Source of the DNA: an uncultured Rhodospirillales bacterium
Lineage (GTDB): Bacteria; Pseudomonadota; Alphaproteobacteria; Acetobacterales; Acetobacteraceae
Assembly (NCBI GenBank): GCA_903924855.1
Contig: CAIYCW010000040.1
Coordinates: 88,757 to 152,756 of the forward strand
Direction of reading: 5' to 3'
DNA length: 64,000 bases
Within the stretch, counting starts at the first letter, position 1, and the number at the start of each line of letters is the position of its first letter. The position numbers and the translations under genes were made by a program. The notes under the pieces are model-generated. The model saw only the letters and a program-made list of their open reading frames with translations. It had not been told where the DNA came from and made no database searches. This document shows, piece after piece, positions 28,162 to 38,318 of this stretch.

Positions 28162-29114
28162 GACTTGAAACACGCCACGTCATGCCCCTCCGCCGCCACG
28201 TGCAGCTCCGGCTCAGCGCTGCGGCAGGACGGCTCGGCGATCGGGCAGCGATCGGCAAACCGGCAGCCGGTGACGTGATCCAGATTGGGCACGCCGCCCC
28301 TGATCACCGGCAGCCGCGCCACCCGCCGCTCCGGGTCCGGCAATGTGGCGATAAGCCCCTGCGTGTAGGGATGGCGCGGATGGGCGAACAGGGTCGCGGC
28401 CGGCGCGCGCTCCACCACCCGGCCCGCATACATCACCACAATGTCGTGCGCGAGCTCGCTCACCACTGCGAGGTTGTGGCTGATGAACTGGATCGCCATG
28501 CCGGTGCGCGCCTGCAGCTCGCGCATCAGATCCAGGATCTGCGCCTGGATCGTCACATCCAGCGCCGTCGTCGGCTCATCGGCCACCAGCAGCCCCGGCT
28601 CACCCGCCAGCGCCATGGCGATCATCGCGCGCTGGCGCATGCCGCCGGACATCTGATGCGGATAGTTGCGCGCCCGATCGCGCGGGCTTGCAATCCCCAC
28701 CGCCTCCAGCAGCCTCACCGCCTCCGCCTCCGCCGCCTCCCAGGAGGCGCCCTTGTGCAGCACCATGATCTCGGCGATCTGCGTGCCCACCCGCATCACC
28801 GGGTTCAGCGCCGTCATCGGCTCCTGAAAGATCATCGCCACCCTGCGCCCGCGCATCCCGCGCCACGCAGCGCGGGACTGGCCGATCAGCTCCTCGCCCC
28901 CCAGGCGGATGCTGCCTGCAACCTCTCCCGGCGCCGGCACCAGCCCCAGCAGCGACAAGGCCGTCATCGACTTGCCGCAGCCCGACTCCCCCACAACACC
29001 CAGGGTGCGGCCAGGTTCGATCCGATACGCCACCCTGTCCACCACGGCACGCTGGCCGAAGCGCACCACCAGATCGGACACCTCCAGAGAGGGCGCGCTC
29101 ACTCGCCCCGCCAT
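28158..29114 (-). CDS. Oligopeptide-type ABC ATPase (DppD/OppD-like)
   Basis: 318-aa ATPase, partner of the OppF-like subunit. Walker [11 protein letters not shown]-loop [12 protein letters not shown], signature [16 protein letters not shown], Walker [16 protein letters not shown]-loop FISHNLAVV; the C-terminus has the Cys-bearing [14 protein letters not shown] segment. The ATG at 29114 has GGAG at good spacing; a GTG four codons upstream is a weaker choice. It overlaps the end of the second binding-protein gene by 16 bp. Confidence 0.93.
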
Positions 29115-30784
29115 TGCTCGCTCCACAGCACCGCGTAGTCATTGTGCCCGGTCGGCACCAGGCCGTGCAGCCATTTCGGGATGGCATGCACCTCGACGCG
29201 GAAGAACAGCGGCAGCGCCGGCAGTTCCTCGGCGTAGATATGCTGCATCTCATCCCAGGCGGTCTGCCGCAGCTGCGCATCCAGCTCGGTCTCCACCACC
29301 TTGATGTCCTGATCGATCGTGTCGTTGCGCCACCCCGCATAGTTGGTACCGGAGTAGTTGTTCTCCTCGGAGGGGATCTGGTCGCTGCCCATAATCTGGC
29401 GCGGGCTGCCGGTCACGTTGAACAGCCAGGAATACAGCACCGCCCCCTGAAAGCTGCGCTGCTTCAACGTCTCGCCGAACAAGGCCCGCGGCAGCTCGTT
29501 GTGGATCACCGACTCGACACAGACCTGCTTCCACTCGCTCTGGATCACCTGCTGCAGCAATTCGCGCATCTTGTTGCCGGCCGTCACCGCAAACGGGATC
29601 GACAGGCGCTGCCCCTCCTCGTTCACACAGATCCCATCCGACCCCGGCTTCCAGCCCATCTCCGCCAGCAGCGCGCGGCTCGCCTGCGGGTCGAACGCGT
29701 AATGCGCCACCTGGTCGCTGTGCTCCGGCTTCAGCGGGCTCACCCAGCTATCGGCGATGACAAACTTGCCGTCGAACATCCGGTCCACCATCGCCTTGCG
29801 GTCAATGGCCAGCAGCAGCGCGCGGCGCATCCGCACGTCACTCAGGATCGGATTGTCGAGCTGCAGATCAATATGGTCATAGGTCAGCGCCGGCTTGAAC
29901 ACATAGTCGAACCGGTTGGGCTGGGTGCGCGCCAGTGTCAGCGCCTGATCGACCGACAGCCCCATCCCCTCCCCCGGCGTCATGTCGACATCGCCGGCTT
30001 GCAGCGTGGCCAGCAGGGCGGCCGTGTTCTCCACCGCGCGCAGCACGATGCGCTTCAGATGCGGCGGCTCACCCGCCCAGTACGGGTTGGGCTCCAGCAC
30101 CACCGTGTTGCCATCGCGGATCTGGATCGGCAGGTATGGCCCGTTCCACAGCCCGGGCGTGGTGGGGGCGGTGTTGTAGAGGCTCTGGCGCAGATATTCA
30201 CCAGGTCCCCCCGCCTTGGCATAGATCTGCCCCTCCAGATGCTCCGGCAGCAGCGTGTCCAGCTGGTCATAGGTGCTGCTCACCTCGTCCAGATGCAGAA
30301 CCGCGGTCTGATCGTCGATCACCTCGACAGATTCGACCTTCCCCCAGCTGCGGGTGTTGGCGAAGCCGGATTTCGGATCGCGCCCCACCATGGCGGTGAA
30401 CGCGATGTCGCGCGCGGTCACCGGCGCGCCGTCACCCCATTTCAGATCGGGGCGCAGATGCCAGGTGATCGCCATGCCCGGCAGCCCCGGCGGGCGCTCC
30501 TCGATGCGCACGTCATCGGTGTCCAGCACCGGAAGCGTGGTGCACATCAGGCAGGTGTTGTGCCAGCCGACATCGAACGCCGTGACCGGGCGCAGCGCGA
30601 ACCCCTCGAGATAGGACTTCACCGCCTCCGGATCGGAGTCCGGATGAAATTGCGACGGGAACGACGACAGGCCGATGGTGAGCTGATCATGCGGGCCTGA
30701 GGGCGGCCCGGCATGGCTCGGCCCCGACCACAGGCAAAGCGCCATGATCGGGGCCGCCAGCCTCACCGCGAAGGGAGGCCTCAT
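29099..30784 (-). CDS. ABC substrate-binding protein family 5, second paralogue
   Basis: 561-aa periplasmic binding protein (DppA/OppA class). Signal peptide residues ~1-25 (RLAAPIMALCLWSGPSHA). Typical family-5 blocks: LRPDLKWGDGAPVTARDIAFTA, DVRMRRALLLAIDRKAMVDRMF and the late RVEVHAIPKWLHGLVPTGHNDY. Clearly paralogous to the upstream binding protein; both carry the unusual NTCLMCTTLP/LSCLLCTTLP pair of Cys. ATGA overlap with the preceding gene. Two binding proteins feeding one permease pair suggests two related substrates. Confidence 0.9.
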   Translation of the reverse strand: MRPPFAVRLAAPIMALCLWSGPSHAGPPSGPHDQLTIGLSSFPSQFHPDSDPEAVKSYLEGFALRPVTAFDVGWHNTCLMCTTLPVLDTDDVRIEERPPGLPGMAITWHLRPDLKWGDGAPVTARDIAFTAMVGRDPKSGFANTRSWGKVESVEVIDDQTAVLHLDEVSSTYDQLDTLLPEHLEGQIYAKAGGPGEYLRQSLYNTAPTTPGLWNGPYLPIQIRDGNTVVLEPNPYWAGEPPHLKRIVLRAVENTAALLATLQAGDVDMTPGEGMGLSVDQALTLARTQPNRFDYVFKPALTYDHIDLQLDNPILSDVRMRRALLLAIDRKAMVDRMFDGKFVIADSWVSPLKPEHSDQVAHYAFDPQASRALLAEMGWKPGSDGICVNEEGQRLSIPFAVTAGNKMRELLQQVIQSEWKQVCVESVIHNELPRALFGETLKQRSFQGAVLYSWLFNVTGSPRQIMGSDQIPSEENNYSGTNYAGWRNDTIDQDIKVVETELDAQLRQTAWDEMQHIYAEELPALPLFFRVEVHAIPKWLHGLVPTGHNDYAVLWSEQWRGE

Positions 30785-32436
30785 TCGGCGCGCCAGTTCT
30801 CCGCCCAGAGCGGGCTGTAATCGCCATGGCCGGTGGGGGTGAAACCCTTCAGCCATTTCGGCACCACATAGGGTTCGGCGCGGAAGAACAGCGGCAGCAC
30901 GCGCACCTGCTCGGCGTAGATCCCCTGCATCTCGGCCCAGATCGCCTTCTGCTTCGCCGGGTCAAGCTCCTGTTCCGCCTGGATGATCAGTCCATCCATC
31001 TTCGGATCGTTGAGGCCGATATAGTTGGCGCCACCATAGTTGTTGGCGGCCGTTGGGATCTGATCGCTGAACTGCGTCTTGCGCGGGCTTTCCCCCACAG
31101 CGCTCGACCAGCCATACATCACCATGCCGGTGAAGGTCCGCTTCTTGGTGGTCTCGCCGAACAGCGTGCGGGCCGGCTCGTTCTTGATGGCGATGTCGAC
31201 GCAGGATGCCTTCCACTGGCTCTGCAGCACCGCCTCCACCAGTTCGCGCAGCTTGTTGCCGGCGGTGGTGGCGATCTCGAAGGCCAGCCTGTCGCCCTTG
31301 TCGTTGCGGCAGATGCCATCAGCCCCCGGCTTCCAGCCCGCCTCGGCCAGCAGCTTCTTCGCACCGGCCGGATCATATTTCACCGCGGGCACCCCGGCTG
31401 CGAAATTCGCATCCAGCGGGTTCACCCAGGTCGCCGCCACCGGCTGCTTGCCGGCGAACAGCTTGGAGACCAGCGTGTCGCGATCGATCGCCATCAGCAG
31501 CGCCCGGCGCACCCGCACATCCTGCAGAAACGGGTTCTCGATCTTGAGGTCGATATGCTCGTAGGTCAGGCTCGGCTTGTAGATATAGGCGAACTTGTCC
31601 GGCGCCTTCTGCTGCAGGGCGATCACCTGATCGATGGTCAGCGCCGGCGCATCGCCGGGGGCCAGGTCGATATCGCCCGATTCCAGATTGGCCTGCAAAG
31701 CCGCGGTGTTCTCGATGGTCTTGATCACCACGCGCTTGAAAGAGGGCTTCGTGCCGGACCAGTACGGGTTGGGCTCCAGCACAATCTGGGCGCCCGAATC
31801 ATAGCCGGTCACCATATAGGGGCCGTTATACAGCCCCGCCGTGGCAGGCGCGCGGTTGTAAAGGGTGGCCTTCAGGTAATCGCCCGCCTCCTTGCCTTCC
31901 GCCGCCTTCGCCTCCAGGTGCTCCGGCAGCAGCTGATCCCACTGGTTGTAGGCCACGATCACCCGATCCAGATGCAGCACGGCGGTGTGCTCATCGATCA
32001 CATCGATGCTTTTCGCGCGATCCCAGGGATTGTTGTTGCTGAAGCCGGATTTCGGATCGGAGCCCAGCTTCCAGGTGAACAGCAGGTCCTTGGTCGTCAC
32101 CGGCACACCGTCCGACCATTTCAGGTCGGGCTTGAGCGTGAACGTCACCGCAAGGCCCTGCTTGCCGTCCTTGGTGGTCTCGAACTTGGCGCCGCCGTTT
32201 TCAATCGTCGGCAGCGTGGTGCAGAGCAGGCAGGAGAGTTTCCAATCCTTGTCGAACGCCGTCATCGGCCGGATTGCGAAATCGAGCACATAGCTCTTGA
32301 TCACCGTCGGATCGATGTTGGGGTTCAGGCTGGGGGCGAACTGGGACACGCCGATCACCAGATCGTCCTTGGCGAGGGCCGGGCTTGCCAGCCCCATCAG
32401 CAGGCTCAGCCCCATGATCGTTGCACGAACTGACAT
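30781..32436 (-). CDS. ABC substrate-binding protein family 5, first paralogue
   Basis: 551-aa periplasmic binding protein, first gene of the seven-gene operon. Signal peptide residues ~1-22 (IMGLSLLMGLASPALA). Blocks LKPDLKWSDGVPVTTKDLLFTWKLG, DVRVRRALLMAIDRDTLVSKLF and FRAEPYVVPKWLKGFTPTGHGDY parallel the next gene. AGGGGA precedes the ATG at 32436. Divergent from an isocitrate-lyase-family gene across 74 bp. Ligand not known; related clusters with flavin monooxygenases import aminopolycarboxylates such as EDTA, but that is only analogy. Confidence 0.9.
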   Translation of the reverse strand: MSVRATIMGLSLLMGLASPALAKDDLVIGVSQFAPSLNPNIDPTVIKSYVLDFAIRPMTAFDKDWKLSCLLCTTLPTIENGGAKFETTKDGKQGLAVTFTLKPDLKWSDGVPVTTKDLLFTWKLGSDPKSGFSNNNPWDRAKSIDVIDEHTAVLHLDRVIVAYNQWDQLLPEHLEAKAAEGKEAGDYLKATLYNRAPATAGLYNGPYMVTGYDSGAQIVLEPNPYWSGTKPSFKRVVIKTIENTAALQANLESGDIDLAPGDAPALTIDQVIALQQKAPDKFAYIYKPSLTYEHIDLKIENPFLQDVRVRRALLMAIDRDTLVSKLFAGKQPVAATWVNPLDANFAAGVPAVKYDPAGAKKLLAEAGWKPGADGICRNDKGDRLAFEIATTAGNKLRELVEAVLQSQWKASCVDIAIKNEPARTLFGETTKKRTFTGMVMYGWSSAVGESPRKTQFSDQIPTAANNYGGANYIGLNDPKMDGLIIQAEQELDPAKQKAIWAEMQGIYAEQVRVLPLFFRAEPYVVPKWLKGFTPTGHGDYSPLWAENWRAE

Positions 32437-32466
32437 CGTTACGTCCCCTGCTGACTTGCGCCTGCA

Positions 32467-32483
32467 TGAAAACGTGTGTTTCA
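32467..32483. promoter_or_regulatory. Candidate operator dyad in a divergent promoter
   Basis: TGAAAACGTGTGTTTCA is a short imperfect dyad (TGAAA...TTTCA) in the 74-bp gap between the divergent binding-protein operon and the isocitrate-lyase-family gene. The size and centre resemble repressor operators. No regulator gene is adjacent. Confidence 0.3.
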
Positions 32484-32510
32484 CCCGGGTGTCAACGAGG
32501 GGACCAACCG

Positions 32511-34379: not shown

Positions 34380-35600
34380 ATGCTCTATGCGCTTTATGAG
34401 ATGCAGCGTGCCAGCCTGGCGCCCATGCGGATGTTCGCCAATTCGGCGCTGACCGTGCTCGACCGGCCGACCAACCCCTGGCGCCCCACGGCGCTGAGCC
34501 GTGTGGCCGTCGCAGCCCTGGACAGCTTCGAACACACCACGCGCAGCTTCGGCAAACCCGAATTCGGCCTCGACCACACAATCATCGATGGCGCACCAGT
34601 CGCCGTCACCGAAGAGATCATCGTCGAGCGAACCTGGGGCAATCTCCTGCACTTCAAGCGTGAGACGGACCGGCCGAACGACCCCAAGCTGCTGCTGGTC
34701 GCGCCGATGTCCGGTCATTACGCCACGCTGCTGCGCGGCACCGTGCAGGCCTTCCTGCCGGATCACGACGTCTACATCACAGACTGGCATGATGCGCGGG
34801 ACATTCCGATCATGGCGCCCGGCTTCGATCTGGACGATTATATCGACTACATCATGGATTTCGTCCGCGTGCTCGGCCCCTCCTGCCATCTGGTGGCGGT
34901 GTGCCAGCCGGCCGTGCCTGTCTTCGCCGCCGTGGCGCTGATGAACGCGCGCGAGCCGGAGGCAGCACCCCGTGGCATGACGCTGATCGGCGGGCCGATC
35001 GACACGCGCGAGGGCATGACGGCGGTCAACACCTTCGCCGAGAAACACGACCTTGCCTGGTTCGAACGCTCGGTCATCCACCGCGTCCCCTTCGGCCACA
35101 AGGGCTTCATGCGCCGCGTCTATCCCGGCTTCCTGCAGCTGGCCGGCTTCATGGCGATGAACATGGAGCGTCACATGGACGCGCATTGGAAGATGTTCAT
35201 GCATCTGGTGGAGGGGGACGGCGAGTCGCTGGACAGCAAGCGCGCCTTCTACACCGAATACCGCTCGGTGATGGACCTCTCGGCCGAGTTCTACCTGCAG
35301 ACCATCCAGAAGGTGTTTCTCGAACACAGCCTGCCGCGCGGCGTGTTCGAACACCGCGGCGAAATCGTCGATGCCGGCGCCATCCGCGTCACCGCGTTGC
35401 AGACCATCGAGGGCGAGCGGGACGATATCTCCGGCATCGGCCAGACCCGCGCCGCCCACGCGATTGCCACAAATCTGCCAGACAGCATGCGTGAGCATTA
35501 CGAGCAGCCAGGCGTCGGCCATTACGGCCTGTTCAACGGCCGCCGCTTCAACAGCGACATCGCGCCGAAGATCAAGGCCTTCATCGCGGCGCATCGCTGA
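34380..35600 (+). CDS. phaZ: Intracellular polyhydroxyalkanoate depolymerase
   Basis: 406-aa cytoplasmic depolymerase that hydrolyses native PHB granules. N-terminal MLYALYEMQRASLAPMRMFAN matches the PhaZ1-type family; APMSGHYATLLRGT and FLPDHDVYITDWHDAR follow. The nucleophile is a Cys (C175 in AVCQPAVP), as in Ralstonia PhaZa1; the probable Asp lies in EGERDDISGIGQT and the His in GVGHYGLFNGRRF. No signal peptide, as expected for granule-bound enzymes. Weak ribosome site. PHA synthesis genes are not in the window. Confidence 0.93.
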   Translation: MLYALYEMQRASLAPMRMFANSALTVLDRPTNPWRPTALSRVAVAALDSFEHTTRSFGKPEFGLDHTIIDGAPVAVTEEIIVERTWGNLLHFKRETDRPNDPKLLLVAPMSGHYATLLRGTVQAFLPDHDVYITDWHDARDIPIMAPGFDLDDYIDYIMDFVRVLGPSCHLVAVCQPAVPVFAAVALMNAREPEAAPRGMTLIGGPIDTREGMTAVNTFAEKHDLAWFERSVIHRVPFGHKGFMRRVYPGFLQLAGFMAMNMERHMDAHWKMFMHLVEGDGESLDSKRAFYTEYRSVMDLSAEFYLQTIQKVFLEHSLPRGVFEHRGEIVDAGAIRVTALQTIEGERDDISGIGQTRAAHAIATNLPDSMREHYEQPGVGHYGLFNGRRFNSDIAPKIKAFIAAHR

Positions 35601-35837: not shown

Positions 35838-36332
35838 TCACTGACAGGCGACGGGTGCCCCTGCAGCAGCCTGGATAGACACTGCAGTGTATGTAATTGT
35901 TGTCGTATCACAGAAATACACCACCGCAGGTGCCGTGGGCGTGGCTGTCGCGCCATACACCTCGTAGGTGAAGTCTCCACCAGCATTATAATGATAGGAC
36001 ACCACGTCAGGAGTACCAGTGTTTTTGGTCAGCGTGTAAGTTCCAATCACTGCAGTGGGCTGAATGCCCGATGCGCCGCTGCCATATTCCGAAATGTTCG
36101 CAGTGGTCGTCGTGCTACCCTTCGATGTGCTGGCATGGTATTCTTGGTTCGTGAAATTCGGGCTCGTACCCACGCACGCCATTTTCCCGTTCAGCAAGGT
36201 GTAAAGGTTATTGTAGGTCACACGCGCAGTGGTTCCGCCCGTACCAACAGCGCATGCTGCCATCGCGGCGTTGCTCGACAATGTCGCGGCCGAAATCAAA
36301 CCAACAAACACGGTTTTGGCGAAAATATTCAT
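35838..36332 (-). CDS. Secreted four-cysteine protein of unknown family, paralogue A
   Basis: 164 aa; I do not recognise the family. Sec signal peptide residues 1-25 (FVGLISAATLSSNAAMA). The mature part is Thr/Ser/Gly/Ala-rich with little charge, probably all beta, and has four Cys (C27, C53, C141, C163), enough for two disulfides. The motif CVGTSPNFTNQEYH (residues 53-66) and the late VVYFC (137-141) recur in the next gene. GGAG sits 9 nt before the ATG. The low charge and small-residue bias suggest an exported or surface protein. Its minus-strand partner is 192 bp upstream; both are in a stretch with lower GC than the neighbours. Confidence 0.8.
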   Translation of the reverse strand: MNIFAKTVFVGLISAATLSSNAAMAACAVGTGGTTARVTYNNLYTLLNGKMACVGTSPNFTNQEYHASTSKGSTTTTANISEYGSGASGIQPTAVIGTYTLTKNTGTPDVVSYHYNAGGDFTYEVYGATATPTAPAVVYFCDTTTITYTAVSIQAAAGAPVACQ

Positions 36333-36524
36333 GGGAGCACACTCCATTCACGCAAGCGCTGACGGACGCCGTTGCGCTGTCATAGCCCACGTGAGCCGTG
36401 ACGGTCAACGAAACGCGAGATCCGGCCATGCGCTGGCCGCATCATCCGTTATCCCCGAAACCCCATCGGTCACCGCATCGTGGCCCAGCCTCCTGGCCTC
36501 ATGCAGCATTATACCGCCTGATGC

Positions 36525-36992
36525 TCAGCAGGCCGCGCTCCCCGACTTCACCTGAATGGTGATCGCGGGAGCACCGGTCACCGCACCGCCTTGAACGTCC
36601 ATGGCACAGAAGTAAAAAACACCCGGAACCGTCGTGCTGCTGCCCAAAATAGCCCAGTGATACATCGCAGACCCACCAGTATACATATCACGGATATGGG
36701 CAGGATCGCCGCCGGTGGCACCGATGCTATCCCAACTCCCAATCACCCCGGTGTTGCCGCCCAATTCGTTGATGGCACCGGCAGCCGTGTGATATTCCTG
36801 ATTCTGGAAATTCGGGCTGCTACCGTAACACAACGTATTGCCTGAAACCACCGTCACCACATCGGCCTTGACCAGATAGCCGGATGTCGTGCCCATCGGG
36901 CACGTAACGGATGCTGCCCACACCGGCGCAGCCTGCAGCCCAACCAGAACCAAGGCGACCAGACCACGCAGCGCCGGAATTCTCGATGTCAT
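36525..36992 (-). CDS. Secreted four-cysteine protein of unknown family, paralogue B
   Basis: 155 aa, family not recognised, homologous to the preceding entry. Signal peptide residues ~1-27 (LVALVLVGLQAAPVWA). Four Cys at 31, 55, 129 and 155 (the last residue) align with those of paralogue A. Shared features: LCYGSSPNFQNQEYH (54-68), GVIGSWDS against AVIGTYTL, MYHW against SYHY, and PGVFYFC against PAVVYFC. The chosen ATG has GGAG upstream and gives a clean signal peptide. The region upstream (36993-37100) is AT-rich and may hold a dedicated promoter. The proteins probably fold alike, with two disulfides in the periplasm or outside. Confidence 0.8.
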   Translation of the reverse strand: MTSRIPALRGLVALVLVGLQAAPVWAASVTCPMGTTSGYLVKADVVTVVSGNTLCYGSSPNFQNQEYHTAAGAINELGGNTGVIGSWDSIGATGGDPAHIRDMYTGGSAMYHWAILGSSTTVPGVFYFCAMDVQGGAVTGAPAITIQVKSGSAAC

Positions 36993-37219
36993 TTCAATCT
37001 CCAGCCTGCCGAGCATTTTTTCAAAAATACCAGAGAAGATTAATTTGAATATCAACACAATGATACGTCTATTTTCAGAAATATTGCAGTGCATTTGAAC
37101 AAACGTTGCGGCGACGGCAATCACCCCAGGCCCGACACATCGCAGCCGATCCGCGTCAGCACCCCACACCTGCACCACTCAACCATCCCCAACACACACT
37201 TGCATCCACCCCGACCGCC

Positions 37220-37248
37220 TCGTATGACGATCGCACAAGATCGTATGA
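37220..37248 (+). promoter_or_regulatory. Tandem TCGTATGA repeats before the Ni/Co transporter
   Basis: TCGTATGA occurs at 37220-37227 and again at 37241-37248, 21 bp apart (two helical turns), ending 17 bp before the chosen start. GTATGA is the half-site of the nickel regulator NikR, although NikR sites are normally inverted, not direct. A nickel- or cobalt-responsive operator is plausible. Confidence 0.4.
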
Positions 37249-37265
37249 TACCGCCGGGAGCCCGC

Positions 37266-38318
37266 ATGCCAACCTTGATCAGCCGCCTGTTCGATGGCCA
37301 GACCATTGCCACACGCGCGCGCATCAAGCGCACCTACGCCATGCTGATCGCAGCCAATATCGGCGCCTGGGCCTGGGCCCTGCTGATCTTCCAGGACCGG
37401 CCGGTGATGCTCGGCACCGCCCTCCTCGCCTACGGCTTCGGCCTGCGCCACGCCGTCGATGCCGACCATATCGCCGCCATCGACAACGTCACCCGCAAAC
37501 TCATGCAGGACGGCAAACGCCCGGTGCGCATCGGCCTGTTCTTCTCCATGGGCCATTCGCTCGTGGTGGTGCTGGCCAGTGCGGCCATCGCGCTCACCAC
37601 CACCGCCCTGCAGGACCGGTTCGAAGGGTTCAAGGAGTTGGGCGGAATCATCGGCACCATCGTCTCGGCTGGCTTCCTCTTCCTCATCGCCGCCATGAAC
37701 ATGATCATCCTGGCGGGCCTGTGGCGCAGTTGGAAAACATTGCGCGCCGGCGGCAGCATAGCACCGGATGATGTGGACATGCTGCTCAACCAGCGCGGCC
37801 TGCTCGCCCGCCTGTTCCGCCCGGTGTTCAAGCTGATCACCGAGGATTGGCACATGCTGCCGCTCGGTTTCCTGTTCGGCCTCGGCTTTGACACCGCAAC
37901 CGAAATCGCCGTCCTCGGCATCTCCGCCACCGAAGCCTCGCACGGCGTGTCGGTGTGGTCGATCATGGTCTTCCCCGCCCTGTTCGCCGCCGGCATGACC
38001 CTGATCGACACCACAGACGGGCTGCTGATGATCGGCGCCTATGACTGGGCCTTCGTCAACCCGGTGCGCAAACTCTTCTACAATATCAGCATCACCGCGG
38101 TGTCGGTGTTTGTCGCCGTCGTCATCGGCGGCATCGAGGCCCTCGGCCTGATCGCCGACCAGCTGCAACTGGAAGGCGGATTCTGGGATGCCATCGGCAC
38201 GCTGAACGACCAGTTCGGCCTGCTCGGCGCCGCCGTCATCGCCATCTTCATCGCGGCCTGGATCATCTCGGTGCTGATCTGGCGCTACCGCGGGCTTGAG
38301 GCTGAGCAGAACGTCTGA
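37266..38318 (+). CDS. Nickel/cobalt transporter, NiCoT family
   Basis: 350-aa inner-membrane permease (HoxN/NixA type) with about eight TM helices. The family signature RHAVDADHIAAIDN (H-x4-DH, metal selectivity in TM II) is near residue 63, followed by GLFFSMGHSLVVV and FGLGFDTATEIAVLG, the other NiCoT signatures. It imports Ni2+ and/or Co2+. The ATG at 37266 has GGGAG six bases upstream; earlier ATGs fall in the putative operator. No urease, hydrogenase or cobalamin genes are in the window. Confidence 0.93.
   Translation: MPTLISRLFDGQTIATRARIKRTYAMLIAANIGAWAWALLIFQDRPVMLGTALLAYGFGLRHAVDADHIAAIDNVTRKLMQDGKRPVRIGLFFSMGHSLVVVLASAAIALTTTALQDRFEGFKELGGIIGTIVSAGFLFLIAAMNMIILAGLWRSWKTLRAGGSIAPDDVDMLLNQRGLLARLFRPVFKLITEDWHMLPLGFLFGLGFDTATEIAVLGISATEASHGVSVWSIMVFPALFAAGMTLIDTTDGLLMIGAYDWAFVNPVRKLFYNISITAVSVFVAVVIGGIEALGLIADQLQLEGGFWDAIGTLNDQFGLLGAAVIAIFIAAWIISVLIWRYRGLEAEQNV

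Follow-up and report, generated by a model that had tools for sequence, protein, structure and literature searches.

A family of four-cysteine, export-type proteins associated with a Wzy-like polymerase and the exosortase/PEP-CTERM system

Among the closest described systems is the exosortase/PEP-CTERM (EpsH) system, described together with its sigma-54 box in PMC1569441 (Haft 2006). According to PMC9850573, prsT and EPS genes are required for flocs, and the PEP-CTERM protein PepA moves EPS from the soluble to the bound state. The family reported here was not found in the sections of these two papers that were consulted. How exosortase, PEP-CTERM proteins and EPS fit together is largely open, and this fit underlies activated-sludge flocs and many environmental biofilms. 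No paper in the collection searched mentions both exosortase and VanZ, and we know of no small barrel cofactor for the VanZ/Wzy class of polymerases.

A tandem gene pair and its site

The window, the whole stretch of 64,000 nucleotides of Acetobacteraceae DNA analysed here, carries a pair of genes for small export-type proteins. The features of the locus are as follows.

36525 to 36992, minus strand: P0002, first gene of the pair, 155-aa four-Cys export-type protein (ORF and translation; family profile E 9.5e-42)
35838 to 36332, minus strand: P0001, second gene of the pair, 164-aa four-Cys export-type protein (ORF and translation; family profile E 1.4e-49; AlphaFold model with a helix and 8 strands)
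36333 to 36524, no strand: spacer of 192 bp between the two copies (GC 0.63)
36993 to 37110, no strand: AT-rich stretch (35% GC) ahead of the pair and probably its promoter region, with no significant promoter or sigma-54 match
34383 to 35600, plus strand: flanking phaZ-like gene (PHB_depo_C, Pfam PF06850), convergent with the pair and, from its adjacency in relatives, marking the insertion site
37089 to 38318, plus strand: flanking NicO-type transporter gene (Pfam PF03824), divergent from the pair and forming the outer border of the locus; its start codon is uncertain

The initial annotation had described two adjacent same-strand genes with four aligned cysteines each, and both ORFs are indeed present on the minus strand, with cysteines at 27/53/141/163 in P0001 and at 31/55/129/155 in P0002. 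The translations also bear out the shared blocks that it had reported, CVGTSPNFTNQEYH and CYGSSPNFQNQEYH (consensus C-x-G-[ST]-SPNF-x-NQEYH), as well as the late blocks VVYFC and VFYFC (V-[VF]-YFC), and by hydropathy both N-termini resemble the signal peptides that had been proposed. The two proteins are paralogues, with 32% identity over 156 columns (BLASTP, E 2e-13). Their lower GC content and AT-rich upstream region are likewise confirmed: the genes have a GC of 0.54 and 0.59 against 0.66 for the window and a GC3 of 0.59 and 0.66 against 0.82-0.88 for neighbouring genes, and the region of 118 bp ahead of the first gene has 35% GC, which places it in the lowest 0.1% of 100-bp windows.

Comparison with relatives gives some insight into the history of the site. 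Where the family is absent, as in five same-genus genomes, an acyl-CoA ligase gene comes straight after phaZ. G295 has a family gene between these two genes, and in the window the order is phaZ, the pair, then the NicO-type transporter gene. The family gene has therefore been gained or lost at a recognisable site. In the phylogenetic tree the two window copies are sisters (support 0.93) and are placed beside the copy that is linked to phaZ in a same-genus genome (0.88), which indicates that the tandem duplication is lineage-specific. The idea of an acquired locus thus holds as far as the sporadic presence and the site empty in five same-genus genomes are concerned. The low GC3, by contrast, is weak evidence of recent acquisition, because family genes have a GC3 below that of their neighbours in many genomes. 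A functional link to phaZ was rejected, the adjacency being seen within the genus only.

The window holds other tandem paralogues: two DppA-like solute-binding protein genes on the minus strand (29099-32484), and two same-strand genes resembling dienelactone-hydrolase-type paralogues (2-1738).

Family members, conserved residues and predicted fold

Relatives within the Acetobacteraceae, the taxonomic family of the window, were first found by a whole-genome search with one protein. A nine-member profile was then positive in at least 13 of 398 Acetobacteraceae genomes; at class level (n=385) the own genome was the sole genome found, also a lower bound, and at phylum level (n=399) there were at least 2 carriers outside the class. 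These counts are lower bounds because about 10 candidates per genome were scored in the large searches. A scan of GTDB contigs yielded 16 family loci, hosted by Acetobacteraceae MAGs, Thauera, Aromatoleum, Nitrotoga, Sulfurimicrobium, a betaproteobacterium, Methylovulum, Methylomicrobium and another member of the Methylococcaceae. The family set comprises 28 distinct members from Acetobacteraceae, Thauera/Aromatoleum, Nitrotoga, Sulfurimicrobium and methanotrophs; L009 and L010, two doubtful rows of the first single-sequence search, were left out after inspection of their frames. Most carrier genomes have a single copy, so that the tandem arrangement considered at the outset is not typical of the family, although G110 has a second tandem pair and the copies of G295 are dispersed.

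The four cysteines are kept in 27, 28, 25 and 28 of the 28 aligned members; the third is missing in 3 and the first in 1, too few losses to deduce pairing from co-loss. Within the QE-[YF]-H block, the glutamate (E64) and the histidine (H66) are each kept in 26/28. G97 and an acidic residue at position 82 occur in all 28, Y113 and Y115 in 27 each, and F140 is also conserved. The constraint that had been proposed for the shared motif therefore applies to its cysteine and to the E and H of NQEYH, but not to SPNF, which is not conserved across the 28 members. Pfam, NCBIfam and PHROGs gave no match for the window pair or for the family members scanned, and no sequence relative was found in the PDB. 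One PDB row, ThreeFoil (E 0.002 with A1, 0.011 with A4 and A6), was discarded, a short YSY-type repeat having been matched three times. With no known-domain match and with the cysteines, E and H conserved, the two proteins belong to a family that the initial annotation rightly left unrecognised and that, judged on sequence comparison, is genuine and undescribed. Two members have unusual architectures: the open frame at L017:11531-12352 (G235) encodes 273 aa, of which the C-terminal half is the family domain and the N-terminal region is an addition that contains Cys, and at L015:915-1703 (G110) the second tandem copy has a large insertion (about 90 aa) ahead of the late cysteine.

AlphaFold runs, which used 17 sequences, predicted a short helix and eight strands both for P0001 (pLDDT 77, pTM 0.72) and for the 139-aa proteobacterial member L047 (pLDDT 82, pTM 0.73). 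At E 0.001 Foldseek matched neither PDB nor viral entries. Calycin-like barrels came up repeatedly among its weak rows, including an amine-binding lipocalin, designed barrels, the Omp19 and Inh inhibitors, the lipocalin-like BT_0869 and rhizavidin. From these models, the fold is probably an eight-stranded barrel, calycin-like but of unassigned family, and the conservation of the cysteines suggests that it is probably held by two disulfides. Two other assignments were discarded. The window pair ends in the fourth cysteine and has no Pfam match, which does not fit PEP-CTERM proteins, and the first cysteine lies at a varying distance after the AxA site in the alignment, which does not fit lipoproteins.

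Association with exosortase, PEP-CTERM and polymerase genes

The link to exosortase, PEP-CTERM and EPS genes was first suggested by reading neighbourhoods and then tested. In the Acetobacteraceae, exosortase (PF09721) was found in 11/13 carriers against 125/385 other genomes (p 2e-4), a contrast that is not significant once collapsed to genera (p 0.2). Outside that taxonomic family it was found in 13/13 genomes tested, including G1144, which was counted as a duplicate of G089 since the exosortase coordinates are the same. Overall, 23 of the 25 distinct carrier genomes have an exosortase; it was not found in G295 (74% complete) and G014. PEP-CTERM matches were present in 15/15 genomes tested, and 8 of 13 genomes have a PEP-CTERM gene no more than 3.2 kb from a family gene, where 0.4 would be expected (P 5e-10; 8e-4 with one vote per genus).

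Most loci have the family genes among or next to PEP-CTERM/EPS genes. The window copies are an exception: no linkage of the pair to the EPS, PEP-CTERM, exosortase or polymerase genes of its own genome was found, these being on other contigs. That genome has 23 PEP-CTERM matches, an exosortase on contig C141, in a locus that by eye has the make-up of a typical EPS cluster, with chain-length, export, ATPase, deacetylase and TPR genes, and a polymerase on contig C69 with a VanZ-like ORF beside it. In Thauera-type loci, the family gene lies between a VanZ-heparinase-like gene and a TIGR03099 decarboxylase gene, with TIGR03098 near; one Aromatoleum neighbour matched TIGR03099 and one Thauera neighbour TIGR03098, both exosortase-A-associated NCBIfam models, above cut-off. 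The 1,200-residue protein adjoining the family gene in Thauera/Aromatoleum-type loci has VanZ and heparinase-like domains. A Methylovulum family gene (L045:7241-7759) has an exosortase H-like gene (TIGR04177, 75.8 bits, cut-off 86) at a distance of 0.8 kb, which suggests that the link is not confined to the exosortase A type. A sigma-54 box, as found at PEP-CTERM genes, is not claimed, because the best matches in the 350 bp upstream of 26 genes were mostly no better than shuffled sequence.

The search for a conserved third partner, proposed with the initial annotation, led to a Wzy-like O-antigen polymerase/ligase. Its gene adjoins a family gene in 8 loci spanning alpha- and betaproteobacteria (L042, L043, L018, L046, L040, L048, L049 and L054), and in L042, L043, L018 and L054 the two genes run in the same direction, with the start of the polymerase gene 81-101 bp downstream. 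The polymerase occurs alone or fused behind a VanZ domain. The own-genome copy matches Pfam Wzy_C weakly (24.3 bits, cut-off 31.7), and the name polymerase therefore rests partly on the membrane architecture and on our own reading. In the Acetobacteraceae, a polymerase profile, which was built from loci adjoining family genes and so favours close relatives, was positive in 13/13 carrier genomes against 5 of 58 controls, of which 55 carry exosortase (Fisher p 1.5e-10; 1.3e-6 with one vote per genus). This bias does not account for the contrast, because most genomes of the same genera that lack the family are negative: carriers against controls were 4/4 and 1/7 in genus g99, 2/2 and 1/6 in g1, 1/1 and 1/4 in g57, and 1/1 and 0/1 in g19. 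In the 5 polymerase-positive controls the family was still absent with a broader family profile, and the family is thus not essential to the polymerase.

VanZ domains are also fused to a heparinase II/III-like region, in proteins of about 1,200 aa (L051:2049-5681, L052:2198-5800, L057:2075-5779 and L047:2196-6143). These four fusions sit in exosortase-A EPS loci, and in their VanZ half they are related to the fusions of VanZ with the polymerase in L048 and L054.

Proposed role and comparison with known systems

The family is almost confined to bacteria with exosortase/PEP-CTERM genes and one polymerase, and it is therefore most likely part of the EPS (slime) matrix machinery. The molecular role that we infer, with a probability of roughly 0.55, is that of an accessory in exosortase-bearing bacteria, serving the EPS that one VanZ/Wzy polymerase handles, in the form of an exported barrel with, probably, two disulfides. 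Such a protein would act in the periplasm or the matrix and would bind the polymer, or the periplasmic loops of the polymerase, through a surface including the conserved QE-[YF]-H strand. Binding would help to assemble, anchor or cross-link the polysaccharide with PEP-CTERM surface proteins. The envelope or surface role raised at the outset is thereby supported, and the co-occurrence with the polymerase gives it a specific partner. A stricter version is put forward only tentatively: the protein may be a dedicated soluble periplasmic partner of the VanZ/Wzy polymerase, on which polymer length or PEP-CTERM attachment depends. If true, this would connect polysaccharide polymerisation with exosortase sorting in a way not recognised before.

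A predicted eight-stranded barrel with conserved aromatic residues and weak lipocalin, amine-binding and rhizavidin matches would also suit a small lipocalin- or avidin-like protein that scavenges a hydrophobic or signalling molecule and is linked to EPS loci since both serve surface life. No fold match is significant, however, and co-occurrence with the polymerase is a more specific tie than a general link to biofilms would be, which makes a scavenger rather unlikely. The best informative weak Foldseek matches of the better model point elsewhere, to U-Omp19 (7mhw, prob 0.97, TMq 0.42, E 0.09), LupI and APRin, as expected if the protein were a secreted or periplasmic protease inhibitor, an Inh/Omp19-like barrel that plugs a protease active site and so protects matrix or PEP-CTERM proteins, or tempers exosortase. 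Although the location of family genes beside PEP-CTERM and EPS genes would agree with this, such an inhibitor is improbable: the Foldseek E-values are not significant, Pfam Inh had no match in the members scanned at E up to 1, no secreted protease gene recurs among the neighbours, and a specific tie to a polymerase would not be expected.

Sporadic distribution, low GC3, an AT-rich upstream region and a site empty in relatives could alternatively be read as signs of a stand-alone adhesin, or of a toxin-like protein with a paralogous partner, horizontally acquired and unrelated to the exosortase system. This is very hard to sustain, as both copies are export-type and alike, low GC3 is common across the family, searches of plasmids, phages and viral contigs returned no homologue, and co-occurrence with polymerase and PEP-CTERM genes would be unexpected. 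The toxin-like role first suggested finds no toxin-like feature or immunity-like partner either. The reading as an EPS accessory is preferred. An unmodelled family that predicts one polymerase almost perfectly offers a concrete, deletable handle on the fit of exosortase, PEP-CTERM proteins and EPS, and it would help to place hypothetical proteins of Thauera, Nitrotoga, methanotrophs and Acetobacteraceae in a context.

Compared with known systems, the family resembles Inh/Omp19 inhibitors, lipocalins and avidins in its eight predicted strands after a short helix, its export-type N-terminus, its cysteines and its weak Foldseek similarity. It differs from them in its conserved residues (four Cys, QE-[YF]-H), and it has no significant fold or sequence match to them. 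Wzy/O-antigen ligase-type polymerases and VanZ-domain proteins are genetic neighbours and co-occurring partners of the family, whose members are predicted to be small soluble exported proteins and not membrane enzymes. With the exosortase/PEP-CTERM system it shares its carriers and an export-type N-terminus, and family genes often neighbour PEP-CTERM genes or belong to exosortase-A EPS clusters, whereas the proteins lack a PEP-CTERM tail and an NCBIfam model, and the search for a sigma-54 box found none. The family tracks one polymerase more tightly than it tracks exosortase itself. It would add a new accessory to a kind of system already known and would not itself be a system of a new kind.
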